DNA of 64,000 nucleotides from Polytrichum commune (taxonomy: Eukaryota; Streptophyta; Polytrichopsida; Polytrichales; Polytrichaceae): contig OX485808.1 in the NCBI GenBank assembly GCA_950295325.1, positions 5,396,501 through 5,460,500 on the forward strand, written 5' to 3'. Position 1 is the stretch's first letter. The number at the start of each line of letters is the position of its first letter. A model generated the notes under the pieces. That model ran no database searches. It saw only the letters and a program-made list of their open reading frames with translations, and had not been told where the DNA came from. Both the position numbers and the translations under genes were made by a program. Below are positions 1,171 through 64,000 of this stretch, one piece after another.

Positions 1171-1602
1171 AGTTTTGGGAGACGACCCAAACCACAATTT
1201 AAAATCTAATAAAACATTGAAAATTGGCTTGAAAATTAAGTTAAAGTTTGGGTCGTTCGACCCAAACTCTTGCCTCATCATGTTTGGGTTGATCGACCCA
1301 AACAGTGCAGGGAGACGAAATAAACCACAATTTAAAATCTAATAGAACATTGAAAACTATCTTGAAAATTAAGTAAATGTTTGGGTCGAGCGACCCAAAC
1401 ATTGCAGCGTCATGTTTGGGTCGTTCGACCCAAACTATTGCCTCATCATGTTTGGGTCGATCGACCCAAACAGTGCAGGGAGACGAAGTAAACCACAATT
1501 TAAAATCTAATAGAACACCTAAAATTATCTAGAAAATTAAGTAAATGTTTGGGTCGAGCGACCCAAACATTGCAGCCTCATGTTTGGGTCGTTTGACCCA
1601 AA
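1171..1602. repeat. 168-base tandem array carrying palindrome A
   Basis: This is an array with an exact 168-base period. Palindrome A (GTTTGGGTCG-NN-CGACCCAAAC) starts at 1246, 1414 and 1582; a second position in the unit starts at 1282 and 1450; a third starts at 1379 and 1547. A degenerate copy lies at 1171-1192. Between palindromes a spacer beginning ACCACAATTTAAAATCTAAT recurs. The central dinucleotide varies (TT, AT, AG) while the arms stay nearly fixed. The array lies upstream of the ParB-like gene at 1961, possibly inside a 5' intron because a splice-acceptor-like TTACAG directly precedes its ATG. Confidence 0.9.
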
Positions 1603-1820
1603 TAAAGCATATACCCTCAATCCTAAACCCAACTCAAATGATGCCCAAATTAAAATCCTCCAAACATAAGGACTGGGTCTGGCGTCCCCAAACAGAAATT
1701 TATATTTAATGTTGCCAGAAATTGAAATTGGTGGACTCATAGATATAAGCATATACTATACTAATACAACAATACTCTCTAACGAGGACCTATCAAGAAC
1801 ACGCGCAACATGGGTTCAAG

Positions 1821-1933
1821 GTTTGGGTCGATCGACCCAAACCTTGAATTCATGATGTCAAATATAATAAATTTCTCTCAATCCTCCAAATGTTAAATGC
1901 ACTTTGCAATACTTTGGGTCGATCGACCGAAAC
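1821..1933. repeat. Two further palindrome A copies just before the gene
   Basis: A perfect copy with AT centre is at 1821-1842. A slightly degenerate copy at 1912-1933 has one mismatch in the right arm (GACCGAAAC in place of GACCCAAAC). The second copy ends 27 bases before the ATG at 1961. Confidence 0.85.
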
Positions 1934-1960
1934 TGACATTCTCGATTTCTTGAATTACAG

Positions 1961-3286
1961 ATGGCCCCTAAGAAAAGACCAGGTGAAAGGTGGTTCATGC
2001 TCACGCCAGACCACCTTTGGCAGGAGTATGAAACACCACAGGACGATTCATACATCCCAAAAGATGGCAACGTTCTGGCATGGTCCGTTCAGGTGGTGAA
2101 GGCCTCCATGTTCAAGCTGTTATTCGTGGTGAAGGTGGGGACCCACGAGCAGCACATCTGGGCAACGCTGACGGGATGGGAGGTGGCGTCCGTCCAAGCT
2201 CTCGGGGACTACGTCGACGTCATACTAGAGAATTCCGCCGTGCAGAACGTCCACATGTTCATGCACCAGTTCTCGGAGCCCTTCGACCCCCTGTACGCCA
2301 AGGAGACTTGCGTTGACCTTGAAACCATAAAACCGGAGGCCATATTCATAGATGGCAGTGTAACCAACACGAAGGTTGCGAGCAGGTTCACGAAGTTAAA
2401 ACAGGCTATCACGGTTCTCAACAAGGCGCTGCAAAACAAACCCAAGACGCAGCAGCCTGTGAGGCGGAAGGCAACGACAGAAGAAGGCACAGGGTCCTCA
2501 AGACCACAAACTGTGAGGAAACCGCGGGCGGTCCCTGCAGACTCGAGACGGACGAGCATTACAACAACGCCGGCTGACAGCGAGACGCCAACGCCATCAA
2601 CAAGCCGTCAGATGACCCCTTCCAAGAGGGGAAGAGAGTCATCAGGGATGACTGACGAGCCTGTTTCCCCGGAGCTCCGGATGCCGAAGCCTGGCCAAGA
2701 GGTGGATGCAGGCGAAATACAAAAAATAAACAACAACTTCGAGACAAAATGCCTGCACTACTTCTTCATGGGCAGGGACTTCAAATTCGAGGTCAACATT
2801 GCGCAGTGCCACCTTGCGCCACCAGAGAAGTGCGTCCGAGCCAAGGAGGACGCCTGCGTCGACTGGATGGTCGCTCAAATCTTGGGCGGGCAGTTCAAGG
2901 ACGACAGGCAGACAATTGTTGTCATGCCACAAGGGCTGAAAAGAATGCCGACGCCTGAGATGTGGCCGGCAATTTCCAAAGGAGACTTCTGGCTGATTGA
3001 CGGGCAACACAGTGTGGAGGCCTCGAAAAAAATCCAGCTGATGACCGAGTGGGACGACCCGAACAACCAGAAGGAGAAGCTAAAAGTTTGGAAGGCTTTG
3101 GTGGTTTGGTCGGACAACGAGACGGTCCTCAGCGACATCTCCAGGTTTTTCAACATGGGGAACAAAAAGAGGGCCTATCAGGCATCGTGGATCAGAAACA
3201 TCATGGCCTCGAGGGAGGTGTGGGAGTTTTATGGCAGGCCTCCCAAGGAAAGGGAGAATACTAAAGACAAGAACCCCAAATGGGAG
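1961..3286 (+). CDS. Exon 1: novel N-terminus plus ParB-like domain
   Basis: This is an open exon of 442 codons starting MAPKKRPGERWF, directly after an acceptor-like TTACAG, and ending KWE before GTGAGT. Residues 1-150 are an unfamiliar globular region. Residues about 160-235 are a basic, Ser/Thr/Pro-rich linker that looks disordered. Residues about 245-440 contain the ParB-like segment: GRDFKFEVN, then a region placed where ParB proteins list their key residues, then IVVMPQGLKR, FWLIDGQHSVEAS and an R-rich helical tail. DGQHSVEA corresponds to the GxHR-like motif of ParB/sulfiredoxin-fold proteins, with Ser where Arg is usual. The ParB assignment rests on motif pattern only. The same layout recurs in the second gene at 62.4-64 kb. 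Confidence 0.6.
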
Positions 3287-3720
3287 GTGAGTATGTTTGG
3301 GTCGATCGACCCAAACTCCTACATTGTTTTATTGTCTTCAACAGTTTCATAGTTTGGGTCGGTCGACCCAAACTCCTACATTGTTTTATTGTCTTCAACA
3401 GTTTCATAGTTTGGATCGGTCAACCCAAACTCCTACATTGTTTTATTGTCTTCAACAGTTTCATAGTTTGGGTCGGTCGACCCAAACTCTTCCATTGTTT
3501 TGTTGTCTTCACCAGGTTCATAGTTTGGGTCGATCGACCCAAACTCTTCCATTGTTTTGTTGTCTTCACCAGGTTCATAGTTTGTTTCGATCGACCCAAA
3601 CTCTTCCATTGTTTTGTTGTCTTCACCAGGTTCATAGTTTGTTTCGATCGACCCAAATTGCTGTTGCATTTGTTGTTCCATTATGTGTTGTCTAACATGT
3701 GCTAATGACTTCCTGTGCAG
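3287..3720 (+). repeat. Intron made largely of a 57-base minisatellite with palindrome A
   Basis: The intron runs from GTGAGT at 3287 to the CAG ending at 3720. Palindrome A starts at 3295, 3352, 3409, 3466, 3523, 3580 and 3637, a strict 57-base spacing over seven units. The spacer changes from an ATTGTTTTATTGTCTTCAAC type (first units) to an ATTGTTTTGTTGTCTTCACC type (last units). The last two units have a damaged left arm (TTTGTTTCG). Frames reading through this repeat give long but meaningless repetitive ORFs on both strands. Confidence 0.9.
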
Positions 3721-5051
3721 GACTTCAAATATCAAATGATCAATAAATTCTCCTCGATCGACAATGCTAGCCACAAGCAGAATAAGTTTAACGAGCTTAG
3801 AGGAGAAATCTATTTGATCACAGCGTCCGATTCCGTGTGGGCAAGATGGAAAAGTGTTTTCGAAAAACACGAGATGGGTGACCTCATCGACCCCGACACC
3901 GGCATGCTCTTCAACCAGACTGCGCGCTTCAAGCAAATGAAGCCTCTAGTGAGGGAGTTCTTCAGAGCGCTTCAAGGTCTCTTCGAAACAGAGATGGGAA
4001 AAGCGGCGTCCCACATCCTACACGTGGAGACGACGGCGAAGAGATGCTGGGTCCACCCTTAGATCGTCTTCACCAAACCCAAGATCTTTGTCCCTTCATG
4101 CTACACCATGAAGGAATGGACGGAGAACAAGAAGAAGAAGACGACCATCGTCCAGGAGCTGCACAAGCTGGTGCCCGAGAAGAAGCTCATCGTGGACAGA
4201 GAGGTCGACGAGGCGCACTGGAGGGCCTTCAAAGCCGAATATAAGTTTACCAGTGCGTCCATGGCGGCACTCATGAGGAAGACGGGAGACGACTTCCTGA
4301 GATCCAAGCTCGTGAAGGGAGGAAAAACCGGGCGCTTCCTGAACACTCAGTGCAGGCCTTCTCCAACTTCATAAAGGAGAAGAAGATTGTCAGTTTCGAA
4401 GGCGATGCGCAATTCAACATGGTCACCGTCGATCCTCTCAGGATCCAAGGTTGGCCGGGCTCTGAGTCCAGGAAGGCGATCAGGACTAAAGCCGGGGACC
4501 GCTTCCCCTTCGGAATGATAGACTTCAGGAACATCCCTGGAGCCTCATTCGAGGGGACTATGAGCACCCCTTTTTACGATCCTTTCTTGTCGAAGTTCGT
4601 AGACTACGCCAGCCCCAAATTTAGGGAGGTCGACGTCTGGCTCTGGATTGTCGAGGATAGGAGGGCAGAGCAGGTTAACGAGATCGTGCGCAAATTGCAG
4701 CCGGAGTATGCCGTCTCGAAATCTCACTACGTTGCTGCACCGGCGGAGGGGGCGTACAACACGTTGAAAGACAAGAAGACGAAGATCATCAACGTGTTGT
4801 GCTTGTAATTTGTGTACAAAGCTGATCTACTTAAGGTGCCCAACCATCCTATAGCCAGGATGGAAAAACTCTTCCAAGTCCAAGAAGGGTTGGGTACCAG
4901 CAGGAGCTTGTATGACGAGGCGAAGTACGCCAACTACCCTGCGGATGAGCTGCGCATGGAGTTCTACCTGCGGATGATGAGGACCCTCACGAAGAGAGGG
5001 GACTGCATCTTCAACGTTTTCGGGGGCTCCAAACCGGTTTTTGCAGCCATG
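3721..5051 (+). CDS. Exon 2: conserved DF-start region and first half of methyltransferase-like domain
   Basis: The exon starts with codons Asp-Phe immediately after GTGCAG and ends GCC ATG before GTAAGC. It holds a conserved block (WARWKSVFEKHEMGDLIDP) shared with the second family member at 63.8 kb. After an in-frame TAG (4060) the same frame continues as IVFTKPKIFVPSCYTMKEW. A frameshift near 4345 leads to the frame containing MIDFRNIPGASFEGTMSTPF and YDPFLSKFVDYASPKF, then an in-frame TAA (4806), then ELRMEFYLRMMRTLTKRGD and NVFGGSKPVFAAM. The order, catalytic-loop-like TPFYDP first and the FGGS motif I-like AdoMet loop later, is that of beta-class N4-cytosine/N6-adenine methyltransferases. 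The usual DPPY/SPPY tetrad is not preserved, so activity is doubtful. Confidence 0.5.
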
Positions 5052-5191
5052 GTAAGCAAAAAACCCTGAAGGCCCTATACGGACGGTTTGGGTCGAGCGA
5101 CCCAAACTAACTATTCTTATTTTGTTTTGGATGTCATTTTCCCTTATTTGTTCATTTGGTGATACTAATAGTATTGATTTTGATTGTCCAG
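5052..5191 (+). repeat. Short intron carrying one palindrome A copy
   Basis: This 140-base intron has GTAAGC donor and GTCCAG acceptor. A perfect palindrome A with AG centre lies at 5086-5107. The intron splits the motif-I-like region of the methyltransferase-like domain between FAAM and MSGLNIYSYVED. Confidence 0.8.
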
Positions 5192-6651
5192 ATGTCTGGG
5201 TTGAACATCTACTCCTATGTGGAGGATGCCGATGTTCAATTCTACAGTACCCAGAAGGCGCTGACCAAGAGAATGGACATCTTCGACTGGATACCCGGAT
5301 CCTACATCGAAGAGATCGCCGAGGGGGCGAGAATCCTTTGGATATGGCGAGGCGAATCAACCCGGGTGAATTCGCCATACGGGCCCCCGTTCAATTGCCA
5401 AAGCCGCTCATCGGGTTGCATGTGGGCAATCCGTCTATGGGAGCAGGTGGCGAGGTTGGGGAGGAGGGGGAGGAAGAGGAAGCAGAGAAAATGGAGGGGG
5501 AGGTGGAGGAAGGGGCAACAGGATTCACTCAAGAATCCGAGGCCCCTCAGCGGAAGAAGGCCATGCGGGCTGCCACGCCGCAGAGCAGGCTGGTGCCCGC
5601 GTTGACGGTGGACGACGTGAAGGACATGTACTCGAGGGACACAACGGCCACCTTCAGGGAGCGGAGAAGGCTGAAGGGGAAGAAGCTGTACGGCGACTAT
5701 GCGGTGGAGGAGATGATCGCAATAAGCTTTGAGGACGAGGACGACATGGAACTCGCCAAGAGGCTGAGGTCGGATCCTGCCTCCCCCAGAGCGTTCGCCG
5801 GGAATGTGAGGGTGAAACCGGAGGTCCTCACCGTGGAGGAGGCGAACGCAAAAATGCTCAGAGACGAGGAGTAGTGTGTGCGACTGCAGAGGGTTGCCGC
5901 CGAGGAACCCTCGGTCCGCAACGAAGTCGCGGAGTTGAGGGCTCTCCTGTTGGAGCAAGAGCGGCAAAGGGCGATGGCCCAACCTCCATCCCAAGCGGAG
6001 CTCATCACGCAAGTGATCCAGGGCATGCTGGCGCAGGGATTGGTGATGGCTCCCCCGAGTTCATTCCCTCACTTGCCCGCAGGCTTCCCTCCACAGGATA
6101 TCCGCCCGCGGCCGGTGTTGGAGCATTCCTTCAGCTTCGCGCATTTGCTGCAGCCGCACGCCCACCCTTACGTGCCTGTCCAGCAGGTGGACGACCCCAA
6201 CCTTTGGCGCGTCCCCGGAGCGTCTAGCTCGTTGGCACCCCCGCCGTTCCGGCCTCCCATCCTCTTGCCCCCACACCACCAGCGGGACGACCCCCACATG
6301 TTTGGGTCGTCCGACCCAAACATTGCCGACGTTGCAGCATCCCAGAGCGACCCGAGCCAAGCAGCAGGGTTTGGGTTGGCCGACCCAAACCCCGTCCCCG
6401 ATCAGACCCCGGTTGACGAGCCTATGCTAGATGTTGAAGGCCCGCAAGGGCCTGGTGATACCTCTACTCCTAACCCAGTCGATGAACCAATGCATGATGC
6501 GCATGCGGAGGTTGGGTTGGGACAAAGGCCTGACAGTCAGCCTTTGCAGGAGCAGGTTGCGGCTGACATCGTCGTCGGAGTCGGCGGTGACAGAGGTGGG
6601 GCAGCGCACGCGATGCCGGCATCAACGTCGTCAAGGCACGACCAAGGCGAG
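5192..6651 (+). CDS. Exon 3: end of methyltransferase-like domain, acidic coil, Pro-rich linker
   Basis: It starts MSGLNIYSYVEDADVQFYST, which fits the strand and acidic residue following motif I of an amino-methyltransferase. A frameshift near 5325 moves to a frame with an acidic run (EEGEEEEAEKMEGEVEEG), then a charged segment with DDVKDMYSRDTTATFRERRR. The in-frame TAG at 5872-5874 is followed without frame change by LQRVAAEEPSVRNEVAELRA and LLLEQERQR, a clear coiled coil that began before the stop. The last third is Pro/Gln/Ala-rich and low complexity and ends QGE before GTAATG. Two palindrome A copies lie inside the reading frame (6300-6321 and 6369-6390). Confidence 0.5.
6300..6390 (+). 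repeat. Palindrome A copies inside coding sequence
   Basis: Copies at 6300-6321 (centre TC) and 6369-6390 (left arm GGGTTG, centre GC) are read in frame as FGSSDPN and FGLADPN within a disordered Pro-rich linker. Both keep the frame open. This resembles the behaviour of bacterial palindromic elements that insert in ORFs, but here in a plant gene. Confidence 0.85.
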
Positions 6652-7152
6652 GTAATGCACTAACCCCACTCAGTTTGGGTCGGTCGACCCAAACTCCCTG
6701 GGTCTTTGACTTCTTGCCTTGGTCGTGTCCCCTAGCTAGGACGAACTTACGCGACCCCCCCCCCCCCGGCACTCGCGCCCTTCGTCACCCCCAGCGACCA
6801 TTCGTTCGTCCACCTACCCCGGCTTGCGACGAAGTCTTCATCAGGGCGGCGCGTCTCTTCAAAGTTTGTTAGATGTAGAACTAGGCTAGTTTGAACACAT
6901 CGTTCAACGCGGCTCCCCCCCAATCAAGATGTACATAGAGCATTGTATATAATACAATCACCATTTTTGACTCCTATATACTTGTATATTGTGTTTGAAT
7001 GTATTTTGTATGCTCTTGTATCCCTTGTTGCACCCCCTCCAAAATGAATCAAATGTTTTGTGTTTGCACGGAGAACACTCATTTCTTTAATGTTTCCTTT
7101 GGACATAGCATGACATAAGTCGCCCACCGTTTTCTCTCGATCGTATCCGCAG
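6652..7152 (+). other. Intron with one palindrome A copy
   Basis: This 501-base phase-0 intron has GTAATG donor and CCGCAG acceptor. Palindrome A with GT centre is at 6673-6694. A 10-base C run sits near 6757. The remainder is A+T-rich with no gene. Confidence 0.65.
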
Positions 7153-7965
7153 GGCTCGGAGCATAGCGTAGCGGCTCCCCGACGCTCTTCTCCAAGGAGC
7201 GGAGAGGGCAGCGCGGCGGCACCCCTGGTTTTACCCGCCCCGCCCCCACTACCGAAGAAACGATTCCTGGTGTTAGACCTGAACAGGGTCCTCGTCCAAT
7301 GCGTTCATTGCCCTAGGACCCCCACGGTGCCCTTTTGCAAGCCCGAGGACGCGAATTACGACGGGCCGCCCACGTTCATAAAGAGCAAGCTAGTTCACCT
7401 CCGCCCGTGGCTTCGGACCTTCCTCCAGATCGCCCAACAACGATGGTGGGTGGTCGTGTGGAGCTCCATGAAGGCCGAGAACACCAATGCCGTCGTGGAG
7501 TTCATCTTCAAGGGCATCGAGTCCCCGTGCATGGTCTTAGCACAGGAAGCCTGTAGAATATTGTACACACCGGACGGCAAAGTCATCAAAAAACCAAACA
7601 ACCCCGCTTCCCCCCAATATCTCAAGGTCTTGAAGCCCATTTTTTGGGACCAGCGTCCGTCCTTGATAGGCGTTCCCTACGACGTCCGTCCCACCCGCGA
7701 GAACACGCTCATGGTGGACGATAGCGCCGCCAAAAACATGTTGAACCCGACGGCCAACTTCATAGTTTGCCCTACGAGGACGGTCGAGAAGGTCCGGGAC
7801 CTATTTTTGTTAGACCTTAGTAAATACCTCCAGGTGCTCTGGGGAAGCGGACTACCCGTAAACAATTTTGTTAGGAATAATCCAATAGGCGAGAGATACT
7901 TGGATCCACGAGACCATTTGTACAGAGAGTTGTTCTCACACGTGAAATTTAACAAGCTCATTTGA
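7153..7965 (+). CDS. NIF/FCP1-like HAD phosphatase domain exon
   Basis: This is an uninterrupted reading frame from the acceptor at 7152 to the TGA at 7965. After a basic, Pro-rich lead (ending LPAPPPLPKKR) comes FLVLDLNRVLVQ, the nucleophile motif I. The first Asp is kept and the second is Asn, as in plant NIF-like proteins with DLNG. Then follow HLRPWLRTFL, WVVVWSS (motif II Ser), KPIFWDQ (probable motif III Lys), and LMVDDSAAKNMLNP (motif IV Asp pair). Plant relatives are small-CTD-phosphatase-like NIF proteins of the HAD superfamily that act on phosphoserine or remain uncharacterised. A GTGAAA donor at 7942 (phase 0) could splice to the next exon at 8103; otherwise the protein ends FNKLI at 7965. 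This is the best-preserved part of the gene. Confidence 0.75.
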   Translation, partial: GSEHSVAAPRRSSPRSGEGSAAAPLVLPAPPPLPKKRFLVLDLNRVLVQCVHCPRTPTVPFCKPEDANYDGPPTFIKSKLVHLRPWLRTFLQIAQQRWWVVVWSSMKAENTNAVVEFIFKGIESPCMVLAQEACRILYTPDGKVIKKPNNPASPQYLKVLKPIFWDQRPSLIGVPYDVRPTRENTLMVDDSAAKNMLNPTANFIVCPTRTVEKVRDLFLLDLSKYLQVLWGSGLPVNNFVRNNPIGERYLDPRDHLYRELFSHVKFNKLI

Positions 7966-16736: not shown

Positions 16737-18474
16737 CTTGTATCCAGGGTTGTCTATCGCGACGTCATGACGGTGTCGTGCCGTCATGTCGTGTCGTGTC
16801 GTGACGGACCCCTCCGTCACGACACAATAGGGTCCACGTAGGGTCAACATAGGGGGAACGGACTAGGGTGGGTAAAATACTTACCTTCTTGCCAAGGTGG
16901 CGTCCTATGTGGCAGAAAACGCCGACGTGGTCGTGGATATGCCTAGCGCCAGGTAAATCATTTTGCCATTTTGTTTAACATTTTGTTAAAATCAAAGTAG
17001 TAAAAAATGACTAAGGAGGGTGTGGGGCGGACGGGGGACGAGGGTGGGGCGGACCGGGGTGGGGGGGGAACGGAGCGGACGGGGTCGGGAACGGGGGGGA
17101 ACGGAGCGGACGGGGTTGGGAACGGGGGCGGACGGGGGGAACGGGGGCGGACGGGGGGAACGGGAGCGGACGGGAACGGGGGCGGACGGAGGGGGGGGAA
17201 TTTTTAAAAAAAAAACAGATTGGGGCGGACGGGGAAGGGAAGGGGGGGGGGGGAAAAAAAAAACTGGGGCGGACGGGGGAGCGGATGGAGGGGCGGACGG
17301 GGGGGAACGGGGCGTACGGGGTTGGGAACGGAGTGGATGGGGTCGGGAACGGAGCGGATGGGGTCGGGAACGGAGCGGATGGGGTCGGGAACGGAGCGGA
17401 TGGGGTCGGGAACGGAGCGGACGGGGGGGGGGGGGGGGATTTTAAAAAAAAAAAAATGGGGCGGACGGGGAAGGGCGGGGGGGGGAAAAAAAACAAAACA
17501 AAACTGGGGCGGACGGAGGGGCGGACGGGGGGGAACGGGGCGTACGGGGTCGGGAACGGGGGCGGACGGAGGGGGGGGAAATTATTATTTTTTTAAATGG
17601 GACGGACGGGGAAGGGGGGGGGGGGAAAAAACTAGGGCGGACGGGGGAGCGGACGGAGGGGCGGACGGGGGGGAACGGGGCGCGGACGGGGGGGAACGGG
17701 GCGTACGGGGTTGGGAACGGAGGGGACGGGGTCGGGAACGGGGGCGGACGGAGGGGGGGGAAATTAATTTTTTTGTAAATGGGGCGGACGGGGAAGGGGG
17801 GGGGGGAAAAAAACTAGGGCGGACGGGGGGGAACGGGGCGTACGGGGTTGGGAATGGAGCGGACGGGGTCGGGAACGGGGGCGGACGGAGGGGGTGAATT
17901 TTTTTTAAATGGGGCGGACGGGGAAGGGGGGGGGGGGGGAAAAAAAAAACTAGGGCGGACGGGGGAGCGGACGGAGGGGAACGGGGCGCGGACGGGGGGG
18001 AACGGGGCGTACGGGGTTGGGAACGGAGCGGACGGGGTCGGGAACGGGGGCGGACGGAGGGGGGGAATTTTTTAAAAAAAAAAAATGGGGCGGACGGGGA
18101 AGGGAAAAAAAAAAAAAAAAACTAGGGCGGACTGGGGAGCGGACGGGGGAGCGGACGGGGGGGAACGGGGCGTACGGGGTTGGGAACGGAGCGGATGGGG
18201 TCGGGAACAGGGGCGGACGGGGGGGCGGACGGGCTCTAGTAAATTTTTCCCCACTTTACCTTTACTTTGCTGACATGTCATCACACGTGGACATTGTAAA
18301 TCCTACGTGTCCGAATTGGGTTAATGTAATTACACAAAAAAATCGGTAAAATTCAAGTCCGTCAGGATAAAGACAACATCCGGCATAATGTCGTGACGGA
18401 TACGTGTCGTGACGGCACGACATTATGCCGGGATTACCCTCCGTCACGACACAATAGACAACCCTGCTTGTATC
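16737..18474. mobile_element. Non-autonomous hAT-type transposon in a kinase exon
   Basis: The element spans 16745-18466 (1,722 bases). It begins CAGGGTTGTCTAT and ends ATAGACAACCCTG, giving perfect terminal inverted repeats. It is flanked by the 8-base target duplication CTTGTATC (16737-16744 and 18467-18474). The right arm has the empty site at about 49150-49157 with a single copy (one mismatch). Subterminal parts carry repeated CGTCACGACA-like strings in both orientations. An 8-base duplication and CAGGG ends are hallmarks of the hAT superfamily. No transposase ORF is present; the interior is a G-rich tandem repeat. Confidence 0.9.
17020..18235 (+). repeat. G-rich tandem repeat inside the hAT element
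   Basis: About 1.2 kb consists of irregular units built from GGGGCGGACGGGG, GGGAACGGGGCGTACGGGG and GGGTCGGGAACGGAGCGGA, punctuated by A or T runs (for example near 17205, 17440, 17580, 17770, 17935 and 18070). The G-strand has dense runs of four or more Gs and could form G-quadruplexes. Long Gly/Arg-rich or Pro-rich reading frames across it are compositional artefacts and are not reported as genes. Confidence 0.9.
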
Positions 18475-27100: not shown

Positions 27101-30100
27101 TGGAGACCATGCCCTTTGAAAATTGTATTTGAACAATATGATTCAATTAGTTTTTTTAAGAAGTTCAGATTACAACATTGTTAGGACGATTTTCATCTTT
27201 AATACTAATGACTTTATTCTTTGGCAAAGAAATTTATTATGTGCTTAACTTCAACAAGGTTGAGAAGCTCAACCTTGTTCAACAATGTTCAAACAATTAT
27301 TGTCCAGAACAAATGTTGTAAAATCAATATGTTATGAGACTAAACACCAACTGTCATTTAGCTTACTTACATTGCTTACTAGGGCTTTCAGAAAATTTAA
27401 TTTTACATATTTAGAAATGTTGTAAGATAAATTAACAAATACAAGTATACTTCTCTAAGTAGGAAAACCTGCATGAATGGAGTCTCTTCACTTGGAAATT
27501 AACTTAATGGCACCCTTGAGTTGTTGATAATTTACATCAATAAGGGATTATATATGGAGCAAATGATGGGTTGAGGATATGTACATGTCAAAACAAATAC
27601 AATTCAATAGATGTCATCAATGAACTGATAACTATTGGTTGCTTGAATTTCACCTAATGATGGGAAAAGAGAAGTACACATACAAGTTCTTTAAGCGTAG
27701 CAACATGGAGAAATCAGGTAATAGTCCATCAAATTTGTTTTGGGAGAGATCTCTGCACACGAGTCAAGTCACATATTTCAATCATGAACTATAATGTATT
27801 CGGTCATTTATAGTTTAGTATATTAAAACTATTTACGTATGGAGTTCAATGCACATTAACATCATTGTTCAAAATCAAACCACATGATTCAAATCACCCC
27901 CAAATCCACCTAGTGTTTTGGTATATGAATGATGTCACCCCCCCCACACACACACAAACCTTTCCCCTTCCATGTCATGGTCAATGTTTTGATTTTTGTC
28001 CACATAATGACTTAAAGACTATGATACGATGCATGTTCCAAGATCGTCTTACACTACTAGCATATGAGCCCCATGCAATGGTCTTGCTTTGGTGAGAGTA
28101 TATGCAAATCTACCCACGATGATAGATTTACAATTTTTTGGATGACACATGATAATTTTCCAGTGATAGTGGACAATTACTAACAACTCATATGCTTGGA
28201 GTGTTTAATGATTTCTATAAGTCATGGTTCCACATTACTTGACTCTGAAGGCCAATCATTGTTTCCACCCAAATGATGTTAAACAAATTTTGACCTCATC
28301 ATAACAAACAAAGTCAGTTCTCAATTGCTGGGTGCTTTCCTAGCAATATGGTTGTTATTTGACCTTGGAGGTTTACACATGCCTACGCAAACTACACTGA
28401 AGAATTGCATCTACTATATGGTAGGCATTCAATGACCAGCCACAGATCCAGTTATGCTATTGTATTGAGGAATTTGGAATATGCTCTAATAGGAATTGAC
28501 TCAAAGAGTCTTACATAACTTAAGTAAGTCCTAAATTTCTTAGCAAAATTTACAAAGTGATACTTACAGAGTGACCAAATTTGTTAGAAACCCAAATGCT
28601 TGTCGAGGTATCTCTCCTGAAATTTGGTTGCGAGCAATGGAGAATTTTTGGAGTGTGCCAGATTCGCCAAATTGAGTTGGAAACTGGCCAGTAAATTGAT
28701 TGCCACTCAAATCCCTACAACATTACATGTATAATACATTCAGATCTCAATGTCTCATAGGAAAAAGTGCATGAACATTCAAGACAGCCACATTATATTT
28801 CTTACAGTGTTTGCGGATTGTGCAGACTTGATAACTCCTCTGGAATAGTCCCATTGAAATTGTTGTCATGAAGGTCTCTACAATAGAAGAATGGTACAAA
28901 AATCATCACAGAAATTACTGATTTTTTGGTACCAATTATACCATACTTCCTTTGAAAGCATTTTTACCACTGAGATCAATGTGACGTTCTTCTCTAACTG
29001 AGGTGGTATGTGGTTGAAAGGCTTGCTGATCTAATGTTTGTAATACTATATATCAAATAATTTATTTGATGGATGTTAAACAGCATATACCACATTCATC
29101 AGCTGTCTCATATACCCAATGTAAAGTTCTGTCGAACACATGCTGAATCAATCATCAAGGCCAAATTGAGAATGCTCATGTTGGCTCTTACAGTGTGTTT
29201 AGAGGAAGCCCACCAAGCTCCTTGGGGAGATTACCAGTTAGGTTAGGATTTCCAGTCAAGGACCTGTACATGCCCCAAAGCAATGCCATCTCGTAAAACA
29301 ATTTGCAAGTTGATACTGTTGCCACATGCACTCGAACCACGTTGCGCTTATTATAACTTGGATTGGGTACAGTGCGACTCACAATGTAACCAGGTAAGAA
29401 AAGTTTGATATCCCTGGGGGCAGAATACCATTGATGGATGCATTGTTGAATGTCCTGTTTCACCCAATGCACTCGCCTCTCAGTCAGTCGTTTTCTCTCT
29501 TAATCTCTCCTGATCTCTCTCGCCCATTGTGTGTGTGTGTATATATATATATATCTAGAAACTCTCTAAATGATAACAAAATACACTACGAACATCTGAG
29601 TGTTAGACGATTGTTGTGCGTCATTAGTCTCTAGTTCTACACCCCTTTCAAAATCCACAAGTCAACCATAGTGGTAGATTGCATTGTTTTTTCATTGGCG
29701 TGGGACATATGCGGGTAGTGATATTGAAGCTAACTGTCTATCAGGTGCAACACTAGTAGCCATTCACGGCTCTCCAGGTCGCAGGGGGACCAAGATGCCC
29801 TTGCAGGACCATTAGTCTAAAAGTGTCACGCACAAGATTTCAACAAGTAAACCAACCTTGAAAGCTCAAGACGTACATTCTGATCCTGAACCTGAATACA
29901 TTTTGACTCTGACACAAGTCAAGGGAGTGAAGTAGGAGTTCTTCAAGTACAGGGAATACCATATATACTTACAAGCCCACTATCCAAGTATTTGAGTCAA
30001 AGAAGGTATGATTGGATATGTATCTCAAGCAGGATACCCCTTGCCAATTAAACTTCGAATTCGTGCAAGGAAAATCAGTGGAGTTGGCTCCTGTGCCAGA

Positions 30101-39541: not shown

Positions 39542-50471
<10,930 letters not shown>

Positions 50472-58239: not shown

Positions 58240-60930
58240 AGTTTTTTGTTACAAACAAACCCAGGGAAACACTCATGAAAGACTTAAAAGATGACTTTTA
58301 CATCATCTAAGTGTCTCAAATAAAGTTTGTTAAAGAAAACACAAGGTTATTTCACTTCATTTTTTATTAGAACGGACAATTGGTTTACGGGTAAGGGATA
58401 AAAACATTAAAAACCTCTCCAATTCAGTACATGCAATTGTGACTCTCATTCACCTCACTCTAATTTCCAAGATAATTGTTTGGCAGTGAATTCATTTTAA
58501 TTGAAACAAGTGCGGTGCACAAGCATAGGCACAACCATAGTCAATGGTCTTGCATAAGTAACTCATTTTTGTCTCTCTACCGAAGTCAAGTGCGTTTCGG
58601 CATAGTCAATAGTCTTTCATTAATTAATTTCATTTAATGTAACTTGAAAAGGCAATGTGGTAATCCTTTTAGTATGATCAATTTTATTTTATTATATTCA
58701 ATCTTAATTATGTGGTCCAACAATAATTTCTTACTTGGCCTTGGCCAAGGTATTCATAAGTTCTTTCTTCAAGGCGATAAATCAAAACCACTTATGCGTG
58801 TTAACATATTCTCACCTAATTCATAAATTCATCTTGTTAATTTAAGGTTTCAATTCCCCACTTTTAGATCTTAAAACATTCATTTCATTTATCATTATTA
58901 TAAATAATGCTTAAGCAATTCAATTATGAAAGATGATGAAATTCCAAGTTAGACTTAATTCACTTAAAATTGCAATTAGTAATTAATACTTACCAACCAC
59001 ATAAGCGGCACATCTTTTTGTCTTCTCCGCATCCGGTTAACCTTTCGCAGTCAATAATCCCGACATGTTGACGTTTCATTTCCTATCAAAGGTTAATACA
59101 GGACAGTTTCTCCATTGACACTACAAATACCATAGTCTTGATCTTTGATCGATTGAATTATACTCTGGTATCCGGTGTTACGGCTCTCAATCTCTTTTCA
59201 CATATTACAACCACACCACTTTCTTCTTTCAAATTGATTTAAAGAATTGAATCTCATTTATGACATTTGGTTTGTTGGTGCACTCAGTTTTAGAGGCAAT
59301 TTAGGAAATATACGATTGTATCAATAGGCAGACTATAGCCTCTTAATTATGTCATGCAATCAGACCAATTTGTAACATGTTTAAACAATTTCATGTTATC
59401 ATTCAATTCAATTAAAGGTTTACATGTAAATCAACGACAAACTCACTCAAAGAATTACATTCAAATTTAATTGCATGAAAATTACCAACTTAATAATGTT
59501 GGGTACATTTATTGATAAAAAAAATCATATAATTTCAAAGTACATGAATTGCAGTTTCAATTATGCACTAATACGAGCCATACCATAGTCTTAATTAAAC
59601 ACCCTCGTTTTCAAACCGCCATACCCGATACTCAAATAAATTAATACTCAAAGACAATCAGTGCTCATAGATTATCAGTTCAATGCCATGACAATTTCAT
59701 TGGATTTACTTAATCCCTTCCAACCTCAGACTATCGACTTATTTGCAAAATTGGTAATTTATTATAGTATAAGGCTAAGTATGTTCAAGGCAATGATTGA
59801 CCTTGAATTAATACAAACATTAAGCAATTCAGATAATTAATGACGACTAACTACTGACAAATTACGCATACAGATTAACCTTAGGAATCACTCATGTTTA
59901 ACTTGCAAATTCACTCGCACTTAAAATGACTCTCCAAAAAGAAACAGAACCACATAGCTCCAATACATTCCCCGTGGAGATAGTTTAATAAAGTCACACG
60001 AAAGGGAATAGACTCCGCATATACGAATCACTCGCATATGCTATAATATATGCTTAACATTCAAGAATAGTTCAGAAAGTCATAATTTTAAAAGAAATTC
60101 AATAACATCCACCACATGCTCTCGGCCTCTCGCCTCTCGCCTATAAAAAGACTAGCCTCGCTCAACTTCTGAGAGAGTCTCTCTAATTTCTCCACCCTCC
60201 TGTAGCTCTAAGAGCCGGCCGAGTCTCTATAACTACCTCAGTTGCCAACAAACTATAGTCCTTACTAATAACTTTTATGATCTCATAAGATTATTGTCGT
60301 TTCCACTAGTCATTTTAGGCAATGTCTAGGTGAATAAAGACTTTGTTTCCATTTTTTTAAGAAATTAACTACAAAATTCAAATTTTACTACTACATTGTT
60401 ATTGAAAGATATGTTGATTGTGTTGGCCAGGTAAAAGACTATTATCAAACGATGTGATTAAGAATTTATGTGGTTGACCATCATGAAAGGATTACCGTAT
60501 CACCATTTCAAGTTATACTAAGTGGAATTAACCAGTGAAAGACTATTGACTATACCGAAATGTCGTTGGATTCAGTGCAGAGACAAAAATGGACTACTTA
60601 CCCAAGACCGTTCACTATGGTTGTGCCTATGCTTGTGCACTGCACTTGGTCCAATTAAAATAAACTCATTGCGAGATCATTGCATGAGAATTTAGAGTGA
60701 GGTGTGTGACCGTCACAAATATATCTACTGACTTTGAGAGTTTTTTAAACGTTTTTATCCCTTACCCGTAATCCAATTGTCAATCCAAACCCAAAATATA
60801 ATGAAATAACCTTATGTTTTTCTTGATGAAACTTATTTGAGACACCTAGATGATACACAAGTCACATTTTAAGTCTTCCTTGATTGTTTTCCTGGGTTTT
60901 GTTCCTAGTCAAAAAGTAGATTACAAGAAC
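58240..60930. repeat. Inverted LTR-like arms flanking an A+T-rich spacer
   Basis: About 520 bases at 58240-58760 match the reverse complement of about 60400-60930 with moderate divergence. Shared strings include GACTTAAAA, GTGTCTCAAATAA, AAGGTTATTTCA, TAACTTGAAA and GTAATCCTTT. The left copy abuts the primer-binding-like site. The spacer between them (58760-60400) has no recognised gene; it contains C/T-rich sequence near 60120-60200. It could be two LTR copies of opposite orientation or one LTR with internal inverted structure. Confidence 0.6.
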
Positions 60931-62370
60931 TTCTATTGAAATTGAACAACAATTGCAATGAGCCCACCAAAGAAAGCTAGTGAGCTCTCATTTTTTACGT
61001 GGATGTTCAGGGTTGATAACGTGGAAGGGGTTATTTTGAACGTGACCTGAAAATTTCAAGTCCATTGGTAAATGCCTGTGGGAATTGGAATGAGTAAGGA
61101 AAACAAGGGGGTATCCCACGGGCGTTCACCCCTAGGACTTGCATATCCCAATATGTAGCCTACGAATACATTGATTTTATGGGTTGTATCCTTACTTTGG
61201 AAATTATATATTTAAAAACTAGGAATTTAGTCCTAACATTCTATGCCCACGGGCGAATGCCCTTGGGACTTGAAGCAAGAGAGTTGGTTTACAATTTGCT
61301 TTGAGCAAGACAAAATTAGAATTGGTAACACTAAATATTATATTTAGTGTAGTTACTAGTTCATTCTCATATATGAACTAGTAACTACCGATTGGTTTAC
61401 AATATGTTTATAGGGCTAAAACTCTAAGCTACTGAATACCATTTTGAGGGTGCATTCTTTAAGATCACAGACACACACACACACACACACATTTAAAAGA
61501 AATGAAGTAGTTACAAATTTAAAATGTGATTCGCTAATTCCAGTATGTAACCTACAAATGCATGGATTTTATGGATAGTATCCATATTTTGGAAATAATA
61601 TATCTAAAACCTAGGAATTTAGTCCTGACCTTCCATACCCATGGGCGAACGCCCGTGGGACTTGAAGAAAGAGAATTGGTTTACAATTTGTATTGAGTAA
61701 GACAAATTAGAATTAGTGACACTAAATATCACACATGGACCAGTAACTACCAATTGGTTTACAATATGTTTGTAGGACTAAAACTCTATGCTAGTGAATG
61801 CCATTTTTAAGGTGTATTTTTAAGATCATATATATATATATATAAAGTAGTTCTAAATTTAAAATGAGATCAAACAAGACAAATGAATCCCAATATGTAA
61901 CTTACTCATAAGGGGATTTTAATTGGTGTCTCATGTATGTCTAGGTATAATTGTAGACCTACGAGGGCCATAGGCGAACACTTGTGGACCTTCTAGGTAT
62001 TTTATAGAATTTTGAGTCCCACAAGCGTTCGCCCGTGGGATTCAAAACCCTAGACATCACCATGGGTTTGTCCCACGGGCGGTCGCCCATGGCCCATAAC
62101 TTCTTTATGTTTCAACATAGTACAAATTTCTCTAGCATTACTTTAAAATAAATCTTAGTATATTCAACAAATTATAATAGACAGTGGGTGTTTCATTCAG
62201 GTACATAGACTTACCGCACTAATATTTTAGTTGATGAGAAATGACAAGAACTAACAACTCGTAAAGGTAGAACAACGTGACCTAAGTTTCTTGAAATATC
62301 ATGACATTTATTGAATTAAAGAATATATCAACATATCATGGGTACTAATATATGCATTTCTTTTCTACAG
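60930..62370. repeat. Tandem repeats carrying palindrome B
   Basis: Segments at about 61149-61490 and 61541-61850 are direct repeats with an offset of about 392 bases, and a partial third begins near 61885. Each carries palindrome B (consensus TCCCACGGGCG-NN-CGCCCGTGGGA). Copies are at 61114-61137, 61245-61269, 61637-61661, 61967-61990, 62017-62040 and 62071-62094, with centres such as TT, AA and GT and several decayed arms. A (CA)n run near 61464-61490 and a (TA)n run near 61830 occupy the same place in the unit. The array directly precedes the second ParB-like gene. Confidence 0.85.
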
Positions 62371-64000
62371 TGTTTGGAGGATCAACTAGAGTGGTGAATT
62401 GGGATATCGACGTTTTGGAAGAAGATGTGAAATGGTTTATGCAATACAATGTTTGGAGAGACAACGGTATTGTTATTATAAACCAAGACTAGAAATAACT
62501 CCACATAGAGGAAGTACATGAAAGCAAAACACGTATTGGATATTCAAGCAGATGGGAGACGAGCATTGATAATGTGCAAATCGGTAGAGTGGAAGAGGGA
62601 CTTCAAGGTTGTAGGATCTGTGAGGTTTTATTCCTATGAAATTATTAATGAAGAGTTAAATAATGAGGGAGAGAACATCCGCTCATTGAATGATAAATTC
62701 TTAACTTATTGTATTGTCTATTGTGAAACAAATGAATATACAAAGACTATGGAAGGGAGAGCAGTAATGATCGAGCAAGACTATAAATTTGCTAAGCGCT
62801 AGGTGAAGGTTATAGTGGAGGAGGCAAAGACAACAAGGATGGAAGCATCATCAAAGAAAAAACAAATATGAGATGGGAAGTCAAAGGTTAATTACAATAT
62901 CCGAGTGGAAACATAAAAAAAAAACGAGACATAATAATGACCTTAACATAACTATACATGACAATCCCGACGAGGATGTCGTTCCCAAGAAGGGAAAGAA
63001 AAAACACCTGATTCAAGTCATTTTCTAGAGGTCAAGAAGATTCCCAAGAAGTTGAAGCGTGGGCTCCCAGATAAATCCGTTGGAGACATGTTGATGGACA
63101 TAGAGCTTTTCAAGAATAAATACAATAGGGTGTGAGTTTTTGGTGAAAGAGTCTTTAGATATGTGAGTGTTTCAAATATAAAGCGTGGAGATGCAGGGTA
63201 TAATTGTCGACCCATATCCGAGGCGCATTTGAAAGAGGTGAAGACTTGGTTATTCAACTATGCCTTCATGCCGAAGAATTATCCCAACTTCCTTACAATT
63301 GTTTCTTTAGATAGAAGTAGAAAACCCGCCAGTTTTGAGGAAATTAAAGATAAATCATTTCATGTTGTCAATGGACAACTCACATTGGCAACATGTTTGA
63401 GGTATGTAAATGACCCCAACAACACTAAAGAGGTGAAGGAGTTTTTTTCCAAAATGATCATGTAATGTGTTCGGGGCTCCCGAATGTGAGGATGAATATT
63501 TTTTCCACCTTTATGGCATTCTTAATTTGGATAGTGCATATAGAAAGCATTTTCCATCATAGATGGAGTGCATTCAACACTCTAGAAAGACATGAATTAG
63601 AAGAGGAATGATGTCTCGAATTGCGCGTCAAAAGACAAGCAACTCATATGTTTTCAAGAAATAAAAGATATTTTCTAATTCTGGGTCCACTGAAAGCCTT
63701 GTTGCAGTGACATTCATGGGCGTATACCCGTGGAAAACTAACATCATATGTTTCAATGTTTTATATCGTAGTATTCACGATTCATTTTTGGACTTTAATT
63801 TCATAGGACTTCATGACGTGCATCATGTGGACCTATCATGTGGAGAATGAGGCCAATTTTATCATGGAACACGTCTTCCTAGCATTGAATGATGAACTAT
63901 AGATTAAGTGGGAGGGAATATTCATGGACTTTGAGATGAATGAATATATAGATGCAAAGACCTTTGGTCTCATGAAGGATACAAAGGATTATAAACCCAA
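62371..64000 (+). pseudogene. Second ParB-like family member, decayed, runs off the window
   Basis: After TTCTACAG (62370) a frame reads VVNWDIDVLEEDVKWFMQYN. A further frame at 62518-62802 matches the pattern of the first gene's N-terminus. From about 63045 to 63465 comes the ParB-like segment with RVFRYVSVSNIKRGDAGYN, CRPISEAHLKEVKTWLFNY, FLTIVSLD and FHVVNGQLTLATCLRYV (compare FWLIDGQHSVEAS in the first gene), then NDPNNTKEVKEFF (compare DDPNNQKEKLKVW). An intron ends TTTCATAG at 63806 and the next exon starts with Asp-Phe (63807), the same position and phase as the 3721 exon. It contains IKWEGIFMDFEMNEYIDAKT, like WARWKSVFEKHEMGDLIDPD. Stops and shifts are frequent and base composition is A+T-rich, so it is older or more decayed. 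The Gly-Gln core is kept but the Asp before it is Asn. Confidence 0.6.
63714..63734. repeat. Palindrome B copy in the conserved intron
   Basis: TCATGGGCG-TA-TACCCGTGGA lies about 70 bases upstream of the acceptor at 63806. It occupies the intron homologous to the palindrome A minisatellite intron (3287-3720) of the first gene. Confidence 0.75.

Follow-up and report, generated by a model that had tools for sequence, protein, structure and literature searches.

The 64-kb stretch of DNA analysed here (the window) carries two related genes, each accompanied by its own short palindrome: gene 1, of clade 1 of its family, with palindrome A, and gene 2, of clade 2, with palindrome B. The features at gene 1 are the following.

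1246-1933, no strand: palindrome A in nine copies (0-2 mismatches), upstream of gene 1
1961-3271, plus strand: gene 1 (clade 1), ParB-like exon 1
3295-3658, no strand: seven palindrome A copies in gene 1 intron 1, in 57-bp tandem units, with 0-3 mismatches
3721-5050, plus strand: exon 2 region of gene 1, resembling an MTase (IDFRNIP, GDCIFNVFGGSK); its reading frame is interrupted and so not fully intact
5086-5107, no strand: palindrome A in gene 1 intron 2
6300-6694, no strand: three palindrome A copies (6300, 6369 and 6673), those at 6300 and 6369 within the open frame 5878-6660
7270-7962, plus strand: NIF (FCP1-like) phosphatase ORF downstream of gene 1 (Pfam NIF, E=5.3e-10)

The features at gene 2 are the following.

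61114-61137, no strand: palindrome B copy, 3 mismatches
61136-61706, no strand: direct repeat, two units 392 bp apart (61136-61314 and 61528-61706), 84% identity
61245-61268, no strand: palindrome B copy, 3 mismatches, inside unit 1 of the direct repeat
61637-61660, no strand: palindrome B copy, 2 mismatches, inside unit 2 of the direct repeat
61967-61988, no strand: degenerate B-like palindrome, 7 mismatches in 20 arm positions
62017-62040, no strand: palindrome B copy, 2 mismatches
62071-62094, no strand: palindrome B copy, 3 mismatches
62393-63690 (outer limits approximate), plus strand: ParB-like exon of gene 2 (clade 2), decayed; matched in the genome search over 62446-63459 and 63413-63679, with many stops
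63713-63734, no strand: degenerate B copy, 6 mismatches in 20 arm positions, within the gap homologous to intron 1
63805-64000, plus strand: start of gene 2 exon 2 (MTase-like part), truncated at the window end; DNA 74% identical to the related locus L033

An initial annotation of this DNA had placed palindrome B at 61.1-63.7 kb, and this held: five copies with two or three mismatches and two degenerate ones were found there, although no copy in the 64-kb window was exact. None of the five would be expected by chance (0 in 100 shuffles), and among the B copies the de novo palindrome scan recovered the one at 61637 alone. As 19 of the 23 departures of the seven window copies from the B consensus were C>T or G>A, these copies look like decayed sites. 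The consensus that had been deduced for B proved to be real, with 177 exact cores genome-wide and none for the reversed control, and the tandem repeats claimed upstream of gene 2 were found as the direct repeat that holds two of the B copies. At up to three mismatches, B in the window was confined to 61114-62094, and A, with 20 copies, to 1246-6694, around gene 1. Looser settings added three A-like matches of 4 mismatches each (8532, 9070 and 9168) and, at 7.7-18.1 kb, eight matches to the B pattern with 6-7 mismatches, in which the arms paired poorly (3-5 of 10 positions). A symmetric extension of A beyond its core was dropped as a candidate; it measured 0-3 bases in 19 of the 20 copies and 6 in one.

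Gene 2 is a pseudogene, real but broken, of a family with open members elsewhere in the genome. Its own-genome matches fell into two pieces with 11 and 5 internal stops, plus a third short piece, so that the second ParB-like gene of the initial annotation is a true clade-2 relative but not an intact gene. Comparison with the less decayed L033 gave a DNA identity of 72% over 62157-63620; the similarity ended at 63620 and restarted at 63805, and the intron-1 gap between these positions holds the palindrome at 63713, in agreement with the claim that B also occurs in the homologous intron. The L033 locus has a single stop in exon 1, B in 10 copies upstream (at most 2 mismatches) and one B inside an open frame.

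Elsewhere in the window, receptor-kinase-like ORF fragments stand in mirror order at about 14-52 kb (in the ORF list, for example, 29188-29472 on the minus and 40263-40547 on the plus strand), which suggests a large inverted duplication. The region 17000-18300 has a strong GC skew and contains G-rich repeats of tandem-like form (GGGGCGGACGG...). Inverted arms (58257-58681 and 60474-60899, 78-80%) bound the region 58240-60899, which is probably an LTR-type element on the minus strand; the sequence at about 58220 resembles what we take to be a tRNA-Asp primer-binding site.

With gene 1 exon 1 as query, 47 proteins were matched; gene 2, read with X at its stops, matched 38, and three divergent members used as queries gave 9 matches, 6 of them new. 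Clades 1 and 2 are 14-17% identical (alignment A3). No Pfam family scored above cut-off among the scanned members, and Pfam, PHROGs, NCBIfam and PDB sequence searches yielded no firm name for the ParB-like exon; a weak ParB-like PHROG match was obtained for one protein, P0086 (E 0.048). Foldseek searches with the modelled domain returned no match at E<=0.001, and the five top-ranked matches were all of ParB type (best E 5.7e-3). Judged from this model, the exon-1 protein is predicted to be of the ParB-CTPase-like (ParB/Srx) fold; the GERR-type P-motif of ParB is presumably replaced by GQHS or GQHT in this family. The second part of the protein matched Pfam N6_N4_Mtase below cut-off (E=0.0064 and 0.056) and has a motif-I-like GSK and a conserved DFRN.P, at the place where the motif DPPY would be expected. 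A fold model of the MTase-like region of gene 1, built without an alignment, was uninformative (pLDDT 34). In viral-contig scans neither palindromes A and B nor the family proteins had a match. A short first exon ahead of some clade-2 genes begins with MARTKQTARK (L033:2306-2360, corresponding to G000:C1:~33085310; L032, minus strand, ~1278; and the N-terminus of P0062), a sequence that we take to be identical to the N-terminal tail of histone H3. It was not found at up to 3 mismatches in the window or in the distant contigs L001 and L002 (see below).

The initial annotation had proposed that the two genes with their private palindromes are what a co-evolving pair of protein and site would produce, and correspondence between palindrome type and protein clade had been set beforehand as the test. 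Many predicted family proteins run through the splice donor into intron 1, and because translation continues past the donor, the palindrome can be recognised in the protein tail; these tails are translations, and their DNA was therefore inferred by way of the codon table. Tails were used if they extended for 14 residues or more past the donor, which left 41 of 91 proteins (23 of clade 1, 14 of clade 2 and 4 of clade 3); P0038 (a false donor match), P0057 (which runs into exon 2), shorter tails and proteins with no donor match were set aside. A-type palindromes were present in 21 of the 23 clade-1 tails and in none of the 14 from clade 2, and B-type palindromes in 7 of the 14 clade-2 tails (one at 2 mismatches only) and in none of the 23 from clade 1; neither type occurred in the four clade-3 tails. 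A known palindrome was thus absent from 2 of 23 clade-1, 7 of 14 clade-2 and all 4 clade-3 tails, and among the 28 palindrome-bearing tails type was associated with clade (Fisher p = 8e-7). Sub-clades carry palindrome variants that are altered in both arms, A1 (GTTTCGGTCG), A2 (GTTTCGGGCG) and B1 (core CCCACGGGTG-NN-CACCCGTGGG), which were defined post hoc from the same tails. The A arm of the initial annotation alone matched 18 of the 23 clade-1 tails at up to 1 mismatch, and palindrome B alone, without B1, matched 5 of the 14 clade-2 tails. Palindromes with shuffled arms (300 each for A, A2, B and B1) had near-zero matches in the tails, and the single high null value, obtained for A, probably arose because the same arm was redrawn.

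In a tree built with FastTree, with 32 tips labelled by one of six palindrome types, 6 changes of type were sufficient (the minimum possible is 5), compared with a mean of 14.3 and a minimum of 11 in 2000 label shuffles on the same tree, a contrast whose significance the shuffle overstates because the tips are related. Six of the labels did not come from tails (genes 1 and 2 of the window, L033, P0057, L001 and L002). Palindrome type therefore tracks protein clade as had been predicted. The further step to co-evolution is only partly carried by this result: palindrome and gene are linked in one element, so that covariation by itself is no proof of co-evolution, and co-inheritance with a transposon, by common descent, would give part of it. 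A stronger argument than covariation is that the two-fold symmetry and the placement of the palindromes persist while their sequence is replaced.

A third lineage bears on this point. Scanning genome contigs with the family profile identified two contigs, L001 and L002 (CADCWO010000243.1 and CADCWO010000269.1), that are binned as a cyanobacterium (Synechococcales MAG81); as they carry intron-containing, transposon-type genes, they are probably eukaryotic contamination of the bin. The two are 71% identical to each other, they represent a distant lineage (25-28% identical), and both have the layout of a ParB-like exon 1, an MTase-like exon 2 and a further exon. In the matching introns lies palindrome C (ATTCAGCTCGA-N-TCGAGCTGAAT), which is unrelated to A and B. 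It is present in intron 1, in intron 2 and downstream on both contigs, and upstream on L002 (L001 starts too near the gene); at up to 2 mismatches, 15 of its 16 sites in the assembly were on L001 or L002, and the reversed control had 1. Downstream of the L001 gene, at 5224-6024, is a NIF phosphatase (NIF E=1.9e-14), in the same gene order as at gene 1. As a NIF ORF or its remnant follows the ParB/MTase-like gene in three lineages (the window, L001 and, by eye, L033 at ~7220-7800), the phosphatase is perhaps part of the module.

We then considered the distribution of genes and sites in the 408-Mb assembly. The clade-2 protein P0048 had at least 98 matches in this genome (95 of 837 candidates scored). 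Of these, 48 reached 600 bits or more, many of them without stops and several with equal scores, which is what recent copies would show; the rest were fragments and 23 remote matches (24-28%). Palindrome A with a TT/AA centre occurred 1000 times in the genome (control 0), and among the 100 A sites listed on C1 none was near a clade-2 gene. Some A sites on C1 (for example at 620729-624419, 3968867-3972500 and 32039514-32043205) are spaced almost constantly, in 158-bp steps and then at intervals of about 1.7-1.8 kb and 1.45 kb, a regularity that copies of an A-type element would show. Palindrome B with a TT/AA centre occurred 158 times, and 100 of these sites, up to C4:34.78 Mb, were listed and compared with seven B-group genes on C1-C4 (four full ones of at least 775 bits, and three partial ones added by hand). 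Of the sites listed, 71 lay within 15 kb of a B-group gene, 75 within 35 kb, and 29 farther than 15 kb from any; the outcome that was to refute the proposed pairing, B being equally common away from the genes, was not seen. For the sites listed, B was present within 15 kb at 6 of the 7 B-group genes, including all four full ones, and at none of 21 other long clade-2 genes on C1-C4 within the listed range, two more such genes lying past its end. When these sites were merged into 26 loci, 6 had a B-group gene within 15 kb, compared with 0.03 at random (the length of C2 being assumed), and the 20 that had none were mainly single sites.

One B-group gene could be placed within a transposon, of which two copies were delimited.

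C3:11260355-11285313: element copy on C3, 24,959 bp
C4:34760497-34785300: second element copy on C4

The two copies are about 99% identical at their ends (4.3 kb and 3.0 kb compared), and the similarity halts sharply outside. The ends are formed by one 30-base sequence in inverted orientation (ATGGCCTTATTAACTAAAATGAGCCAATTG), as terminal inverted repeats (TIRs), flanked in the two copies by 4-bp target duplications, CAGA and ATTC. Target duplications of 4 bp are made by the Sola superfamily, and as they occur in other superfamilies too, they are not diagnostic of it. On the strand opposite the ParB-like gene, the C3 element has a 689-aa ORF for which DUF7869 was the only Pfam match (E=1.3e-45); we infer that it encodes the transposase, and we take its stretches DNCAKDNK and GHTHEDVD as grounds for this reading. 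In the part of the element examined (all but about 7 kb), the ParB-like gene has a second B cluster on its 5' side, a single B follows 62 bases after the exon-1 match ends, and two further B copies are downstream. The window itself had no tblastn match to the transposase-like ORF at E<=0.01, and for the TIR nothing better than 11 mismatches in 30. Gene 2 and its B copies are probably the decayed remnant of an accessory module of such a giant transposon, by analogy with the copy for which the element was delimited.

The other B cluster of the element is a 47-bp tandem array situated 5' of the transposase-like ORF, and the last 800 bp hold degenerate B-like copies with 3-4 mismatches, as would be seen if the palindromes were transposase sites (internal or subterminal repeats) that match the clades because both genes ride on one element. 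We regard this explanation as unlikely, since the palindromes are densely clustered at the ParB-like gene, upstream and in early intron 1, in the A, B and C lineages, and in the one delimited element most of the listed sites are kilobases away from either end. A non-functional, hairpin-like satellite or mobile micro-repeat, spreading by slippage and gene conversion, appears still less probable: it would account for the tandem periods of 32, 47, 57 and 158 bp and for the orphan single B sites, but not readily for a symmetry that survives the exchange of one sequence for another between lineages (A, A1/A2, B, B1 and C), around a variable centre of 1-2 bases and in the same gene regions, nor for the near absence of shuffled-arm palindromes from the tails. 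A role in RNA, as hairpins within introns that steer splicing or serve as a source of small RNAs, is very improbable: many copies are intronic and close to splice donors, but dense groups also stand upstream of the genes, and one array lies 5' of an ORF that runs the other way. A palindrome of two perfect arms around 1-2 nt would also resemble a site for a dimer more than a stable RNA loop.

The reading that we favour, and consider likely, is that the locus is a decayed transposon accessory module in which a ParB-like and MTase-like gene is paired with a lineage-private palindromic site, in a system of transposon-encoded self-recognition that would follow the logic of VANC with a ParB-like protein. 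Copies of the private palindrome stand upstream of the gene, within its intron and in other parts of the element; the protein would bind this palindrome, with its two arms and variable NN centre, as a dimer, and so recognise its own element. Arrays 5' of the ParB-like gene and of the transposase-like ORF would raise the local density of the protein, which could perhaps spread in an NTP-gated manner like bacterial ParB, and the bound protein may shield the element from silencing or otherwise regulate it. Tandem duplication would spread new variants of the site, so that protein and site diverge together. It is also conceivable, in a bolder version that we put forward tentatively, that a ParB-type NTP-switched clamp loads at its own parS-like palindromes, spreads along the element, and sets its chromatin state through the MTase-like part and, in some copies, the histone H3-tail mimic MARTKQTARK, the specificity of site and protein having been re-invented at least three times (A, B and C).

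If the pairing is true, these elements would offer a natural series of protein-DNA specificities, each site written beside its gene, so that specificity could be read from the sequence and tested directly, and they would supply a concrete candidate target for the ParB+MTase transposon proteins of the algal type. The logic of VANC, in which an element encodes a factor that has an amplified motif of its own, would then have arisen a second time, on a fold of bacterial type.

The system that the initial annotation took to be undescribed is in part known. The text of PMC12477816 reports, for the alga Ectocarpus, that the transposon Sola1-1_Ec32 (21.5 kb) encodes an accessory protein with ParB and N4/N6-MTase parts on the strand opposite the transposase; its authors suggest that proteins of this class may bind the element that encodes them and modify it, and cite Iyer 2011 and the Bostrychia genome of 2025 for algal relatives. 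The palindromes do not figure there ("palindrom" has 0 occurrences in the main text), and no report of palindromes paired with ParB+MTase transposon proteins was found in the open-licence literature. By description, the likeness consists of a ParB-like and MTase-like protein within a DNA transposon of more than 20 kb, opposite the transposase or transposase-like ORF; the elements studied here differ in their plant-like host, the weak MTase similarity with DFRN.P, the private palindromes and the NIF-like neighbour. From bacterial ParB/parS they differ in being eukaryotic transposons, in having a site sequence that varies by clade, and in that neither ParA nor HTH scored above cut-off in Pfam scans of the chosen ORFs. 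The passages of PMC5735166 on VANC of the Arabidopsis VANDAL transposons describe a motif private to each sub-family that has multiplied in tandem repeats within introns and upstream regions, for which coevolution was proposed; binding by VANC and loss of methylation were demonstrated, and the motif, YAGTATTAY, is non-palindromic. In anatomy the likeness is close, that of an element-encoded factor with a private short motif in tandem repeats of its own non-coding regions; the motif here is palindromic. What the present analysis adds to these systems is a candidate site, its clade-specific sequence and its recurrence in three lineages.
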